From: Verrucomicrobiota bacterium
GTDB taxonomy: Bacteria > Verrucomicrobiota > Verrucomicrobiia > Chthoniobacterales > JAFAMB01
Reading direction: 5' to 3'
Assembly (NCBI GenBank): GCA_019247695.1
Contig: JAFBAP010000100.1
Coordinates: 1 to 52,669, forward strand
Length of the DNA stretch: 52,669 nucleotides
Part shown: piece by piece, positions 45,969 through 52,669 of the stretch
How the letters are laid out: each line of letters begins with the position of its first letter
Position numbering within the stretch: position 1 is the stretch's first letter
Translations under genes and position numbers: made by a program
Notes under the pieces: generated by a model
What the model saw: only the letters and a program-made list of their open reading frames with translations
Databases searched by the model: none
What the model was told of the DNA's origin: nothing

Positions 45969-46664
45969 TCACGCCTGGCCGTAGTAGGCGGCGGCGCCAT
46001 GCTTGCGCAGGAAATGCTTGTCGAGCAATGCCTGGGGAATGGGCGGGGCATTCGGATTAAGTTGGAGCGCCTTCATCGCCATCTCGGCGATGACCTCCAG
46101 CGCCAAAGCGTTTTCAACGGCTTTTTTACCGCTTGGGCCCCAGGCGAACGGCCCGTGGCTTTGGACGAGCACCGCGCAGATCTGCGTCGGGTCCAGATCC
46201 TTGAAACGCTCGACGATGACGTTGCCGGTCTCCCATTCGTAGGCGGACTCAATTTCCTGCGGGGTCATCATGCGCGTCACCGGCACGCTGCCGTAGAAAT
46301 AATCGGCATGCGTCGTCCCGAAACAGGGGATTTCCCGACCGGCTTGCGCGAAGGCGACGGCATTGCGCGAATGGGTATGCACCACTGCGCGAATGCCTTG
46401 AAACGCCTGGAATAAACGGCGATGGGTCGGGGTATCGGAGGAGGGACGCAACGACCCCTCCACGATCCGGCCGCCATAGTCCACGATCACCATGTCGTTT
46501 GATTGCAGGACGCTATAGTCAACGCCGCTGGGTTTAATCGCGAAAACCCCGCGCGCGGGATCGGCCACGCTGACGTTGCCGAACGTCAGGTCGATCAACC
46601 TGTGTTCCGGCAGCAGCAGGTTGGCCTCGTAACACTCTTCCTTGATCTCACGATAGCTGCTCAT
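45969..46664 (-). CDS. araD: L-ribulose-5-phosphate 4-epimerase
   Basis: A 231-residue class II aldolase-fold enzyme that turns L-ribulose 5-phosphate into D-xylulose 5-phosphate. Metal and catalytic motifs are present: TFGNVSVAD, IKPSGVDY, VVHTHSRNAVAFAQ (two zinc His), FGTTHADYF and SHGPFAWG (third His). It lies 71 bp downstream of araA on the same strand. The kinase that should feed it is only a remnant here. Confidence 0.95.
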   Translation of the reverse strand: MSSYREIKEECYEANLLLPEHRLIDLTFGNVSVADPARGVFAIKPSGVDYSVLQSNDMVIVDYGGRIVEGSLRPSSDTPTHRRLFQAFQGIRAVVHTHSRNAVAFAQAGREIPCFGTTHADYFYGSVPVTRMMTPQEIESAYEWETGNVIVERFKDLDPTQICAVLVQSHGPFAWGPSGKKAVENALALEVIAEMAMKALQLNPNAPPIPQALLDKHFLRKHGAAAYYGQA

Positions 46665-46735: not shown

Positions 46736-48253
46736 TCACAATTTGCCCAAGCCGGGCGCGAGATGATAATAGACCTCGTTATTGCGAAGCTGCTGCTTGA
46801 AGTCGCCCAGGCTCGTGTCATGACCGATGACGGCCAGTTCCACGCCCGCAATCTCCGCAAAATCCTCCAGGTACTCGGTGGTGGCTGTATAGCTGTAAAC
46901 GGTGTGATGCGCCCCGCCGGCATAAATCCAGGCCGCCACGGCGGTCTTGAAATCCGGGAGACACTGCCAGACCGCCCGCGCCACGGGCAGTTTCGGCAGC
47001 GGTTCGAGCGGCCGGACGGCATTGACTTCGTTGACGATGAACCGGAAGCGGTTGCCCAGGTCAATGATCGAGGCGTTGATGGCCGGCCCGGGCGGCGCGT
47101 TGAACACCAGGCGTACCGGATCCTCTTTGCCGCCGATGCCCAGGGGGTGGATTTCCAGCGAGGGCTTGTCCTCGGCGATCGACGGGTCGACTTCAAGCAT
47201 GTGCGAGCCGAGTACCAGGTGATTGTCAGGGGCCAGATGGTAAGTGTAATCCTCCATGAAGGCGGTGCGGCCCCCATTCAGGTCAACGACCATGGCTTTG
47301 ACTGCCCGCAGCAATGCCGCCGTCTTCCAATCGCCTTCTCCGGCAAAACCGTAGCCGTCGGCCATCAACCGCTGCACCGCCAGCCCGGGCAGCTGCTTCA
47401 TGCCGTGAAGGACTTGGAAATTGGTGGTGAAACCTTTGAAATTGCCATCCTCGAGAAACCCGCGCAGGCCAAGTTCGATCCGCGCCCCATCACGGAGGGC
47501 CTCGTGACGCGTGCTGCCCGAACGCAGTTCTTCGGCGACGTTGTACTGCTCTTCATAGGCCGCACAAAGCTGGCTGACTTCCTTGTCACTGACCTTGTTG
47601 ATGTACTCCACCAGGTCGCCGATGCCATAGCCGTTGACTGAGAACCCGAATTTAATTTCGGCGGAAACTTTGTCGCCTTCGGTGACGGCCACTTCGCGCA
47701 TGTTGTCGTCAAAGCGGGCAAACCTGGCCCCCTGCCAGTCATGCCAGCCGCGCGTCACCCGCATCCAGGTCGCCACCCGTTCCTGCACCTGGGGGTCCGA
47801 CCAGTGGCCGGCCACGACTTTGCGCCCCAGCCGCAGCCGGGTGTGAATGTACCCGGCCTCCCGATCCCCGTGCGCCGCCTGGTTCAGGTTCATGAAGTCC
47901 ATATCAATCGAGCTCCAGGGCAGGTCGCGATTGAACTGGGTGTGAAGGTGCAGGAACGGTTTGTGCAGCAGGGTCAGCCCGCCGATCCACATTTTGGAGG
48001 GCGAAAAGGTGTGCATCCAGAGCACCAGGCCGGCGCAGTTCGGGGCGCTGTTGGCCCGAATACAGAGCGCGCGGATTTCCTCGGACCGGGTCAGCACGGG
48101 CTGAAACACCAGTTTCAGCGGGAGCCGTTGATCGGCATTCAGTTCCTCGACGATTTTTTGCGAGTGTTCGGCCACTTGACGGAGGGTATCCTGACCGTAG
48201 AGGTGCTGGCTGCCGGTAATGAACCAGATTTCGGGTGACTCAAGATTTTTCAT
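46736..48253 (-). CDS. araA: L-arabinose isomerase
   Basis: A 505-residue enzyme converting L-arabinose to L-ribulose. It starts [20 protein letters not shown] and has the active-site motifs [13 protein letters not shown] (Glu), [11 protein letters not shown] (Glu), [10 protein letters not shown] (His) and [10 protein letters not shown] (His). All catalytic residues are intact and the length is normal. araD follows. Upstream, 175 bp away, is the start of a ribulokinase-like reading frame that breaks off, so the operon was probably araB-araA-araD. Confidence 0.97.
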
Positions 48254-48427
48254 GGGGTGTTTTGGGGCGGGAAGACGATGAACTTAGGATGCTGCCTGGG
48301 TTTCTTTGGGATGGATCAGGTTTTCACGGTTCTGGAGAGACCGGCACTCTGCTTCAGACCATCGAACGCATGGCGCCCAGCCGATGCCGATCACTTGGCC
48401 GGTGGAAAAGGCCGGCTCCTTGGATGC

Positions 48428-48466
48428 GGAGTTTGTGCCGTAATCAAATCCGAGGGCAACCGACAT
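48428..48466 (-). pseudogene. araB: Remnant of the 5' end of a ribulokinase-like gene
   Basis: On the minus strand, an ATG at 48466 preceded by a GAAGAG ribosome-binding site encodes MSVALGFDYGTNS, which matches the start of FGGY-family L-ribulokinases (GxDxGTxS). After 13 codons the similarity ends; the frame runs on to 48284 with no kinase sequence, and araA begins at 48253. The rest of the gene (about 1.6 kb in relatives) is missing, consistent with an internal deletion that fused the start to the araA leader. A 60-residue peptide could still be made. Confidence 0.55.
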
Positions 48467-48844
48467 AATGTCTCTTCGGGATTACACACAGATCGATACT
48501 TCGCGGCACCTTGGCTGTAACGTACCGCTGGCCAAGAATACCTTTGGGAACGTACGGGCCCCGTCCGGGGGAAAGATGCGCTTCGATTTGTGGCGCCTTT
48601 TCGGCAAGGGCGGAAAAGGCGAAACCGGGTCCCTGCCTTTTCGGTCCGGCGAGCCGGGCCGGAAAAAGCCGGGGCTTCAAGTTTTAGCCCGAAAAAGCTG
48701 GACATAGGTTGCCCATTCCTTGCAGGTTAGGTGAGAGTTGTTCCATTTTGGCCTCCCCCCTCGCAAAGCAAACGGCAGGCCCGGCTCAGAAAGCATTGAT
48801 CTAATTGATTGAACCTTATCTTGAAGTTTATTTAGAAGACAGCT
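48467..48844. promoter_or_regulatory. Divergent regulatory region between the arabinose genes and the sugar importer
   Basis: No credible gene lies between the araB-like start and the binding-protein gene. The last 60 bases before the importer are AT-rich against a GC-rich background (48795-48835), as expected for a promoter and leader. A TTGATT/TATTTA pair at 48805 and 48829 is only ten bases from the ATG and is too close to be trusted. GGCC-rich inverted stretches lie around 48590-48680. I see no clear operator. Confidence 0.35.
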
Positions 48845-49810
48845 ATGAAGCGTCCCCTTACACACTGGTTTCTTATCGCACTCTGCGCCCTGGCGGTGAG
48901 CGGCCCAAGTCACAGCGCCCAGGCGGCTGGTAAAAAGGTTAAACTGGCGTTCGTGACCAACAACGCCTCCGATTTCTGGACCATTGCGCGCGCCGGCACC
49001 ACCAAAGCCTCACAGGACTTGGGCAACGTCAACGTGCAGTTCCGGATCCCGGAGGACGGCACGGCGGCCACCCAGACGCGCATCCTTGATGACCTGCTGT
49101 CAGCTGGAGTCGACGGCATTGCCATCAGCCCGGTTGATCCGAAGAATGAGACCATCAAACTCGATGAAGTCGGCAAGCAAGCGCTGCTTTTCACCCACGA
49201 CAGCGACGCGCCGGACAGCAACCGGGTCTGCTACGTGGGCACCGATAACGTCGCGGCGGGCCGCCAAGCGGCCGACCTGATCAAGCAGGCGCTGCCCGAA
49301 GGCGGAAAGATCATGGTGTTTGTGGGCACGCTCGATGCCCAGAACGCCCGGGAGCGCTTCAGCGGCATCAAGGAGGTGTTGCAAGGTTCCAACGTCCAGA
49401 TCATTGACGCCCGCACCGATGACACCGACCGGGTGCGCGCCAAGGCTAACGTGCTCGACACGCTGGTCAAGTACCCGGATGTGGCCTGCCTGGTGGGTTT
49501 GTGGAGCTATAACGGCCCGGCGATCCTGAACGCGGTGAAGGACTCCAACAAGGTGGGCAAGGTTAAGATCGTCTGCTTCGACGAGGAAGAGGAGACGTTG
49601 CAGGGCGTCCGGGACGGCGCGATTTTTGCTACCGTGGTCCAGCAGCCTTACCAGTTCGGCTACCAGGCAATCACGCTGATGGACAAGTACCTCAACGGCG
49701 ATAAGTCAGCGGTGCCGGCCGACAAGAAGGTCATCGTGCCGACGCTGGCCATTACGAAAGACAAGGTGGATGAGTTTGCCGCGAACCTGAAGAAGCTGCG
49801 CGGCAAATAA
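48845..49810 (+). CDS. Sugar ABC transporter substrate-binding protein
   Basis: A 321-residue periplasmic binding protein of the ribose/galactose/arabinose type. A signal peptide covers about residues 1-27 (hydrophobic core, ending HSAQAAG). The mature part has the two-lobe pattern: VKLAFVTNNASDFWTIARAG, GVDGIAISPVDP, THDSDAPDSNRVCYVGTDN and FATVVQQPYQFGYQAI. The position opposite araA suggests arabinose or a related pentose, which is an inference from context. It is the first gene of the importer operon, separated from the ATPase gene by a hairpin. Confidence 0.93.
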   Translation: MKRPLTHWFLIALCALAVSGPSHSAQAAGKKVKLAFVTNNASDFWTIARAGTTKASQDLGNVNVQFRIPEDGTAATQTRILDDLLSAGVDGIAISPVDPKNETIKLDEVGKQALLFTHDSDAPDSNRVCYVGTDNVAAGRQAADLIKQALPEGGKIMVFVGTLDAQNARERFSGIKEVLQGSNVQIIDARTDDTDRVRAKANVLDTLVKYPDVACLVGLWSYNGPAILNAVKDSNKVGKVKIVCFDEEEETLQGVRDGAIFATVVQQPYQFGYQAITLMDKYLNGDKSAVPADKKVIVPTLAITKDKVDEFAANLKKLRGK

Positions 49811-49935: not shown

Positions 49936-51459
49936 ATGGCGACCCCTGTTGTCGATACGACACCCCTGCTGGAACTTAAAGGCATCACCAAACGTTTCCC
50001 CGGCGTCCTGGCGTTAAGCAACGTGAGTTTCTCCGTCGGTCGCGCCGAAGTGGTGGCCCTGATCGGCGAGAACGGCGCGGGTAAATCGACGTTAATGAAA
50101 ACCCTCGGGGGCGTGCACCAGCCGGATGAGGGCGAGATCTTCTTCGACGGAAAAAAGGTCACGATTTCCAAGGTGGCCGACGCGATCGGGCTGGGCATCG
50201 GGTTCGTCCACCAGGAGCTGAATGTCCTGGATAACCTTGACGTCGCCGCCAACGTCTTCATGGGCCGCGAGCCGCTGCTCGGCGGGCCGCTGCGCCTGGT
50301 AAACCAGCGCCGGATGTGGACCGAAAGTGAAGCGTACCTCAAGCGCCTGGGGCTGAGTATCTCGCCCAAAACGCCCTTGAACCAGTTGTCGATTGCCCAG
50401 CAGCAGATGGTCGAGATCGCCAAGGCGCTCTCGCAAAACGCGCGGGTCATCATCATGGACGAGCCGACCAGTTCGCTTACCCTGTCGGAGACCGACCGGC
50501 TGCTGGCGACCATCAAGGACCTCCGTGCCTCGGGCGTGAGCGTGATCTACATCTCGCACCGGCTCGGCGAGATCGAGCAGATTGCCGACCGGGCCGTGGC
50601 GCTGCGCGACGGGCGCAACGCCGGGGAACTGGAGCGCGGCCGGATCAAGCACGAGAACATGGTCGCGTTGATGGTCGGCAGGAAACTTGAGGACCTCTTT
50701 GTCAAGGGAAAGGGGCCTCAGGAGCGGGGGTATTTACGGGTCGAAGGCCTGCGCACGGCCTACCGGCCGCATCACCGGATCAGCTTCGAGGTAGCCAAGG
50801 GCGAGATCCTGGGTTTTGCAGGGTTGGTCGGTGCGGGCCGATCCGAGATGGCACAAGCCATTTTCGGGGTTGAACCCCCCCTGGAAGGCACGGTGCGGCT
50901 GGGCGGCCAGGAGCTCAAAATTCGTAATGCGCGTGAGGCGATCAATGCCGGCATCTACCTCGTCCCCGAGGACCGGCGGCATACGGGACTGATCACCAGC
51001 ATGACCATCCGCGAAAACATCACCCTGCCGGGGCTCAAGCGTTATTCGCCCGGGATGCTCATCAGCCGCGCGCGCGAGGAAGAGGTCTCGAAGCGGCAGG
51101 TAGCCGCGTTACGCGTTAAAACGCCTTCCATCGAGACCCGGGCCATGAATTTAAGCGGCGGCAACCAGCAAAAGGTGGTCCTGGGGAGGTGGCTTTCCCT
51201 GGAGCCGAAGCTGATCATCTTCGACGAACCGACGCGCGGCATCGACGTGGGGGCCAAGGCTGAGATTTACCGGCTGATGCGCGAACTGGCCGACCGTGGA
51301 GTGGCCATCATCATGATCTCGAGCGACATGGAGGAAGTTCTGGGCGTCAGCGACCGGATCGCGGTCATGCACGAAGGCGACATCACCGGGATCCTATCGC
51401 GCGACAAGTATTCGGAAAAAGCCATCATGAGCCTGGCCACGGGCCGCAGAGAGCCTTAA
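49936..51459 (+). CDS. Sugar ABC transporter ATP-binding protein (RbsA/AraG type)
   Basis: A 507-residue protein with two fused ABC domains. Domain 1: GENGAGKSTLMKTLGG, LSIAQQQMVEIAKAL, IIMDEPTSSL and the H-loop ISHR. Domain 2: GLVGAGRSEMAQAIFG (degenerate Walker A), LSGGNQQKVVLGRWL, LIIFDEPTRGIDVG and a final SSDMEE where a His is usual. This asymmetry is normal for the family. It works with the preceding binding protein and the following permease; the gap to the permease is 54 bp. Confidence 0.95.
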   Translation: MATPVVDTTPLLELKGITKRFPGVLALSNVSFSVGRAEVVALIGENGAGKSTLMKTLGGVHQPDEGEIFFDGKKVTISKVADAIGLGIGFVHQELNVLDNLDVAANVFMGREPLLGGPLRLVNQRRMWTESEAYLKRLGLSISPKTPLNQLSIAQQQMVEIAKALSQNARVIIMDEPTSSLTLSETDRLLATIKDLRASGVSVIYISHRLGEIEQIADRAVALRDGRNAGELERGRIKHENMVALMVGRKLEDLFVKGKGPQERGYLRVEGLRTAYRPHHRISFEVAKGEILGFAGLVGAGRSEMAQAIFGVEPPLEGTVRLGGQELKIRNAREAINAGIYLVPEDRRHTGLITSMTIRENITLPGLKRYSPGMLISRAREEEVSKRQVAALRVKTPSIETRAMNLSGGNQQKVVLGRWLSLEPKLIIFDEPTRGIDVGAKAEIYRLMRELADRGVAIIMISSDMEEVLGVSDRIAVMHEGDITGILSRDKYSEKAIMSLATGRREP

Positions 51460-51513: not shown

Positions 51514-52524
51514 ATGAAGAAGGAACTCGGCATTACCATCCTGTTGGTTGTCCTTTGTGTAGTGGTGGCGGTATTGAACCCGCGATTTCTGGGTGCTTCC
51601 AACCTCACCAACATGGCCCGGCTGATCGGGATATACGGCATTTTCAGCATCGGCATGGGCTTGGTGATCATCACCAGCGGCATTGACCTGTCGGTGGGAT
51701 CAGTCTTCGCGATCCAGGGCGTGATTTTAGCCATCATGCTGCGCGAGTGGAACCTGCCGTGGCCCGTGGCGGTTTTGTTGGTCATCGCCGGCGTCGTTCT
51801 CCTGGGAATCCTGCATGGCTGGTTCATCGCCTACATCCGCATGCAGCCCTTCATCGTCACCCTGTGCGGTCTGCTCTTTTACCGCGGCCTGGCCCGCTTC
51901 ATCGCCAATGACGAAACCAAGGGTTTCGGCAGCACGGGCTTTGAGTTGCTGCGTCACCTGGCGACGGGCAGCGTCGGGCCCGTGCCGATGCCGTTCGTAC
52001 TGCTGATCATTATCGGCATCATCAGTTATGTCGTTCTTCACCGGTCAGTGTTCGGGCGTTACCTCTATGCCGTCGGGCGAAACGAGGACGCCGCCCGGTA
52101 TTCCGGCATTAATAGCCGGATGATCATTTTGAGCACCTACGCAGTCGAAATGCTGCTGGTCGCGATCGCGGGTATTCTCATCGCTTTCTACACCAATTCG
52201 ATCTCGCCCGCCAACCATGGCCAATCGTATGAGCTTTATGCCATCGCGGCGGCCGTGCTCGGAGGCTGCAGCCTGCGCGGCGGTGAAGGGTCCATCATCG
52301 GAATCATCATCGGCACGGCGCTCCTGCAGGTGCTGCAAAACCTGGTCAACCTGCTGGGTATACCGAGTTCCCTGAATTTCGCAGTGATGGGGGCGGTTAT
52401 CTTCCTGGGCGTGCTGGTGGATCAGATCTCGGGCCAGCGTAAGAAGAAGCAACAGGTTCTCGCCCGGGCGCCTGCAGCCACGACGCCTGCCGCTCCGACC
52501 ACGCCAACCCAGGCCGCACGGTAG
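51514..52524 (+). CDS. Sugar ABC transporter permease (RbsC/AraH type)
   Basis: A 336-residue polytopic membrane protein of the branched-chain/ribose permease family. Family landmarks are GMGLVIITSGIDLSVGS, PFIVTLCGLLFYRGLA, GRYLYAVGRNEDAARYSGI, SPANHGQSYELYAIAAAVLG and GGEGSIIGIIIG. The C-terminus after the last helix is a basic stretch (QRKKKQQ) and an Ala/Pro/Thr-rich tail not usual for the family. The TAG at 52522 is followed by a heptamer array after five bases. Confidence 0.95.
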   Translation: MKKELGITILLVVLCVVVAVLNPRFLGASNLTNMARLIGIYGIFSIGMGLVIITSGIDLSVGSVFAIQGVILAIMLREWNLPWPVAVLLVIAGVVLLGILHGWFIAYIRMQPFIVTLCGLLFYRGLARFIANDETKGFGSTGFELLRHLATGSVGPVPMPFVLLIIIGIISYVVLHRSVFGRYLYAVGRNEDAARYSGINSRMIILSTYAVEMLLVAIAGILIAFYTNSISPANHGQSYELYAIAAAVLGGCSLRGGEGSIIGIIIGTALLQVLQNLVNLLGIPSSLNFAVMGAVIFLGVLVDQISGQRKKKQQVLARAPAATTPAAPTTPTQAAR

Positions 52525-52529
52525 CGGGA

Positions 52530-52641
52530 TTCGGAGTTCGGAGTTCGGAGTTCGGAGTTCGGAGTGCGGAGTTCGGAGTGCGGAATTCGGAGTTCGGAGT
52601 TCGGAGTTCGGAGTTCGGAGTTCGGAGTTCGGAGTTCGGAG
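52530..52641. repeat. Heptamer tandem array (TTCGGAG), 16 units
   Basis: Sixteen contiguous 7-bp units; 14 are exactly TTCGGAG, one is TGCGGAG and one TGCGGAA. It begins five bases after the permease stop codon and is the longest array of this unit in the window. It is the same unit as at 40634-40654, 40739-40766 and, inverted, 16685-16712 and 40936-40970. Confidence 0.92.
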
Positions 52642-52669
52642 TGGCATCATGGGTACCGCCTGTCGGTGT

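Follow-up and report, generated by a model that had tools for sequence, protein, structure and literature searches.

The L-ribulokinase gene araB is almost certainly deleted from its place directly upstream of araA in the verrucomicrobial genome studied here, and only scraps of it are left. Its product has probably (rough probability 0.7, judged from gene context) been displaced by an AraK-type ribulokinase encoded on another contig, with araB decaying. The scraps lie in a stretch of 52,669 bases that was analysed as a whole and is called the window. AraA would turn L-arabinose into L-ribulose, the AraK-type kinase is predicted to phosphorylate L-ribulose to L-ribulose-5-phosphate, and AraD would make D-xylulose-5-phosphate. 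The arabinose pathway most likely still works, because another FGGY kinase probably does the job of AraB.

The arabinose locus of the window comprises araA, coding for an L-arabinose isomerase (46736..48253, minus strand), and araD, coding for an L-ribulose-5-phosphate 4-epimerase (45969..46664, minus strand). Both genes are intact, as the earlier note on this DNA had stated: the reading frames are open and both proteins score above curated cut-offs. AraA reaches 805 bits with NF002795 (cut-off 622) and carries the N-terminal, central and C-terminal AraA Pfam domains. AraD reaches 341 bits with the subfamily model NF006047 (cut-off 257) and stays below the equivalog TIGR00760 (328.5, cut-off 389.1). 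The genes of a sugar ABC transporter are located on the plus strand, encoding a substrate-binding protein (48845..49810, divergent from araA), an ATPase (49936..51459) and a permease (51514..52524). The binding protein and the permease remain below every NCBIfam cut-off. The best NCBIfam model for the ATPase is AraG, with 564 bits and a cut-off of 689 that is not reached. At 52530-52642, TTCGGAG is repeated about 16 times in tandem, and the same repeat is present in the loci L033, L035 and L040 of this genome, partly near contig ends.

Directly upstream of araA, a residual ORF of 60 codons (48466-48284, minus strand) opens with MSVALGFDYGTNS. The motif GAAGAG ahead of its ATG represents a putative ribosome-binding site. 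No match to the ORF was found in NCBIfam or Pfam. N-terminal and internal pieces of araB are fused in frame in it, followed by unrelated or frame-shifted sequence. The pieces were located with a DNA profile that was built from 14 araB genes of other genomes and scanned over the window. Piece 1 (48427..48461, minus strand) covers profile positions 6-40, about codons 2-14. Piece 2 (48380..48426, minus strand) is in frame with piece 1 and covers positions 218-264, about codons 73-88. Piece 3 (48304..48371, minus strand) lies in another frame and covers positions 1580-1648, about codons 527-550. At the protein level, the first 13 residues of the ORF share 7 to 9 of 13 with the beginning of araB in 14 other genomes. 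Residues 14-29 (ASKEPAFSTGQVIGIG) match araB residues about 73-88 with 5 to 11 of 16 identical, and the other-frame piece HAFDGLKQSAGLSRTVK matches the araB C-terminus with 6 to 9 of 17 identical. The earlier note had recognized the 13-residue araB start, which stood, and had placed the loss of similarity after residue 13; this second part did not hold, given the matches of residues 14-29 and of the C-terminal piece. About 150 of the 1,650 bp of araB are left, in two frames. At least two large deletions removed some 58 and some 438 codons.

The three pieces are the three best matches of the profile in the window; they share a strand, keep the order of the gene and have E-values of 0.0004, 0.07 and 0.2. 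The next match, elsewhere in the window, has an E-value of 0.36. Piece 3 is the weakest (0.7 bits), and its weight comes from its place and order. Single pieces are weak at the protein level, the best reaching 3.0 bits. A null set of 3,000 random 226-mers was drawn from 11 loci of the same genome and from window positions 1-45000. Two or more collinear matches above 0 bits occurred in 0 of the 3,000. One 226-mer beat the chained score of the remnant; this one and the next three fall in other FGGY kinase genes. A decayed ribulokinase gene upstream of araA, as proposed in the earlier note, is thus upheld by three collinear pieces versus none in the null set. A chance match of the 13 residues, considered as a candidate, is ruled out by the profile matches and the random 226-mers. 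The case that the earlier note had allowed for, coincidental residues and relatives with no araB upstream of araA, did not arise: araB is located directly upstream of araA in all 14 genomes matched by the 13 residues. With its collinear homologous pieces at a site where relatives carry an intact araB, the remnant qualifies as an araB pseudogene. A conserved leader peptide or small protein was also considered and is disfavoured, the genome G001 of the same genus having no counterpart. Promoter and terminator scans of 48200-48900 yielded nothing beyond shuffles. Additional araB-like fragments with stop codons occur in G022 (contig C245) and G205 (contig C160), relatives that also have AraB. Because of these fragments, the window may not be the only place where a spare araB copy has decayed.

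The genome of the window (G000) is an assembly of 191 contigs with 97% completeness. A genome-wide search for araB or another FGGY kinase, suggested in the earlier note, found no intact classical AraB and one intact candidate kinase on contig C42. AraB gave no match in this genome at E<=1e-40, and none of its 10 FGGY_N matches passes the cut-off of NF003154 or TIGR01234 for classical AraB. Nine of them pass no ribulokinase cut-off. The C174 kinase passes the glycerol kinase cut-offs of two models and the C45 kinase that of one; the C89 and C85 kinases pass as xylulokinase (C85 with 551 bits for TIGR01312, cut-off 380). None of the listed cut-offs is reached by the other five, among which one is rhamnulokinase-like. 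The tenth, the C42 kinase, is intact, free of stops and comprises 533 residues or slightly more with FGGY_N and FGGY_C domains. It passes no NCBIfam cut-off. Since it scores 27.5 bits with NF003154 versus a cut-off of 428, it is by its sequence not a classical AraB. BLASTP comparisons with the AraB of G037 were not significant (best E 4.2 for the C42 kinase, 0.029 for its G028 copy). Selection on the C42 gene was estimated as dN/dS 0.114 versus G002 and 0.104 versus G006. The 8,775-base contig C42 holds no arabinose genes, and the kinase is unlinked to araA or araD in this genome. The contig was assigned to the genome because it carries a glycosidase gene with 83% identity to a gene of G001. 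The C42 kinase is taken here to be of the same type as the assayed AraK of Clostridium acetobutylicum (CAC1344); the name AraK is adopted from context.

Relatives of the C42 kinase accompany arabinose genes in other phyla. Ten plasmid records contain a match. Among the five annotated plasmid records opened of these ten, four have the kinase (54-63% identical to that of C42) in or beside an araA/araD cluster (Bacteroides finegoldii, Treponema saccharophilum, Limosilactobacillus fermentum and Enterococcus raffinosus), and the fifth, from Monoglobus, has no arabinose gene beside it. In Bacteroides, the cluster consists of a NUDIX gene, araD, araA, the C42-type kinase gene, a GH127 gene and an arabinofuranosidase gene. 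Brevefilum harbors a kinase-araD-araA cluster whose kinase is 77% identical to that of C42. A second Chloroflexota MAG contains a partial kinase gene of this type (75% over 220 residues) in the same kind of cluster. An unannotated Subdoligranulum stretch has a fucose-isomerase-like gene, a C42-type kinase gene and araD in a row. A kinase supplied from elsewhere is the best supported of the three options given in the earlier note, considering the intact C42 kinase and the proximity of its type to araA/araD in four of the five plasmid records.

A census at E<=1e-30 found araA in 29 of 213 genomes of the order. In 21 of the 29, the gene directly upstream of araA encodes AraB, and in two (G024 and G028) it encodes a C42-type (AraK-type) kinase. 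No intact kinase gene was seen upstream of araA in the remaining six (G000, G001, G008, G018, G059 and G070, the last with araA cut by a contig end). Over whole genomes, 24 of the 29 have AraB, three have AraK (G000, G024 and G028), two have neither (G001 and G008) and none has both. AraB was counted at >=67% identity, as in 26 of 40 matching genomes; 14 genomes at 33-40% were left out and weaker FGGY matches were dropped. The AraB counted for G088 comes as two pieces and that for G104 is partial, both at contig ends. In G018 (C101) and G059 (C39, C41 and C57), AraB is far from araA, either about 33 kb away or on a different contig; hence the order has other cases of a ribulokinase unlinked to araA. 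In G196 (C61, 5565-7005), araA is split over two overlapping frames, by a frameshift or a sequencing error. A tree of 67 of the araA sequences groups G000, G001 and G008 together (100/100) and pairs G000 with G001 (100/88).

G001, the second species of the genus (86% complete), has the same layout of transporter, araA and araD as the window. Between matches to window positions 48267 and 48479, it has 56 unmatched bases where the window has 211. The comparison with relatives proposed in the earlier note gave an intact araB upstream of araA in 14 genomes and no trace of it there in G001. In both G001 and G008, the DNA profile had no match upstream of araA, and all protein matches there were negative-scoring. 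G001 has araA and araD, and neither AraB nor AraK was found; its four FGGY matches, one a fragment, are none of these types. AraK was looked for after the G001 copy of the glycosidase gene that precedes it on C42 and was absent; a sugar transporter operon is located there instead. In G008 (78% complete), araA is present and neither AraB nor AraK was found. The family has three genomes with araA (G000, G001 and G008); no intact AraB was found in them, and none has an intact kinase gene beside araA. AraK is encoded in six of 11 genomes of the family. It is not tied to araA, because in five of these six (G002, G004, G005, G006 and G010) no araA was found. Seven family genomes have araD: G000, G002, G006 and G010 together with AraK, and G001, G003 (95% complete) and G009 (74%) with neither AraB nor AraK. 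That a kinase was missed by chance in all three of the latter would be rare, by a rough estimate of 0.14 x 0.05 x 0.26. As G001, G008, G003 and G009 show neither kinase, some other kinase may serve in the family.

Such a kinase might serve in the window genome as well. Another FGGY enzyme, most likely the XylB-type kinase on C85, would then phosphorylate L-ribulose as a side activity and the C42 AraK would do something else. The C85 kinase is the sole FGGY kinase of the genome with a close full-length relative in both G001 (94%) and G008 (76%), the C45 kinase for example having only a 45-residue match in G001. Relatives of 76-77% are present in G003 (76%), G007 and G009 (77%), C85 alone having been compared with those three. 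A C85-type kinase could cover the genomes without AraB and AraK. However, it passes as xylulokinase, its contig shows no arabinose gene next to it, and it is also encoded in genomes without araA (G003, G007 and G009). This explanation is unlikely.

The earlier note had also considered a broken pathway. In that case, araA and araD would be left-overs heading for loss. A second araA-araD copy has already taken this course on contig C112 (L032 8288-8821), where stops and frame changes interrupt araA residues about 328-380 and araD residues 122-230. The decayed copy has 78-80% DNA identity to the window genes and lies downstream of an open 622-codon frame that resembles, by eye, a sodium:solute symporter. 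Beside it (L032 8151-9100), araB or AraK scraps gave no profile match and only chance-level blastn matches. The lack of an intact AraB in the three araA genomes of the family would also fit a broken pathway. The selection estimates disfavour it. Between the window species and G001, which lacks araB as well, araA has a dN/dS of 0.070 and araD one of 0.035; the transporter genes give similar values (0.036-0.059). Both frames are intact in the window. The genes araA and araD are under constraint, and a broken pathway is quite improbable.

Another sugar, the third option of the earlier note, or an isomerase-only role without a ribulokinase step, would explain why araA has no intact kinase gene next to it in G000, G001 or G008. 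Against this, AraA and AraD both exceed their curated cut-offs, AraA as an L-arabinose isomerase by 805 versus 622 bits. AraD acts on a phosphorylated pentulose, and therefore a kinase is still needed. A changed role of the locus is very improbable. Least probable of all is a collapsed contig hiding an intact araB: the assembly is split into 191 contigs, but the araB pieces show divergence and a change of frame, and G001, which was assembled separately, has no araB either.

The displacement of AraB by AraK may have been prepared by a different isomerase. A fucose-isomerase-like enzyme (PF02952) is encoded beside araD in G006, G009 and G010 and divergently from AraK in G005. G008 has araA and a partial copy of this gene at a contig end; no copy was found in G000 or G001 at E<=1e-20. 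In G092, the order is AraB, fucose-isomerase-like enzyme, araD, and the isomerase occupies the expected place of AraA. In a sample of the phylum, 26 of 387 genomes match the enzyme at E<=1e-100, four at 72-78% and 22 at 39-45% identity. At 14 of these 26 loci, at least one of araB and araD is located no more than about 1.5 kb away. Loci with the enzyme in the place of AraA beside AraB, AraK or araD include L231 (5431-1561), L206, L207, L208, L087 and L276. A non-orthologous arabinose isomerase, AraI, is predicted for Caldicellulosiruptor bescii in a passage of PMC8579813. AraK may have served a fucose-isomerase-like isomerase before or alongside the araA locus. If it already did so, araB could be lost: AraK would have made it redundant, and araB would then have decayed. 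More broadly, the first two steps of L-arabinose use in the family might be swappable parts (AraA or fucose-isomerase-like enzyme, AraB or AraK), the araB scrap recording one swap and G001, G003 and G009 using an unrecognised third L-ribulokinase. This extension is tentative and rather doubtful.

The window provides a clear case of one ribulokinase type replacing another, if AraK has displaced AraB, with the old gene still visible as scraps. The lack of araB in an arabinose operon is no sufficient reason to score the operon as broken, and the findings point to genomes whose ribulokinase has yet to be identified. In the classical araBAD operon, AraB is encoded directly upstream of araA; in the window, about a tenth of that gene survives there as pieces in two frames. 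The displacement of AraB by an AraK-type ribulokinase is a known type of event. L-ribulokinases form the branches AraB-I to AraB-IV within the FGGY family and represent at least two molecular solutions, according to a part of PMC3245297. The AraK of C. acetobutylicum is named ribulokinase in a section of PMC3507653, and the kinase of the Bacteroides arabinose genes is called AraB in a section of PMC4666351. In gene content, the Bacteroides cluster with the C42-type kinase resembles the Bacteroides AraR regulon described in that section. Relatives of the C42 kinase, one from Bacteroides among them, are found with araA/araD, whereas the C42 kinase itself is unlinked to arabinose genes on its contig.
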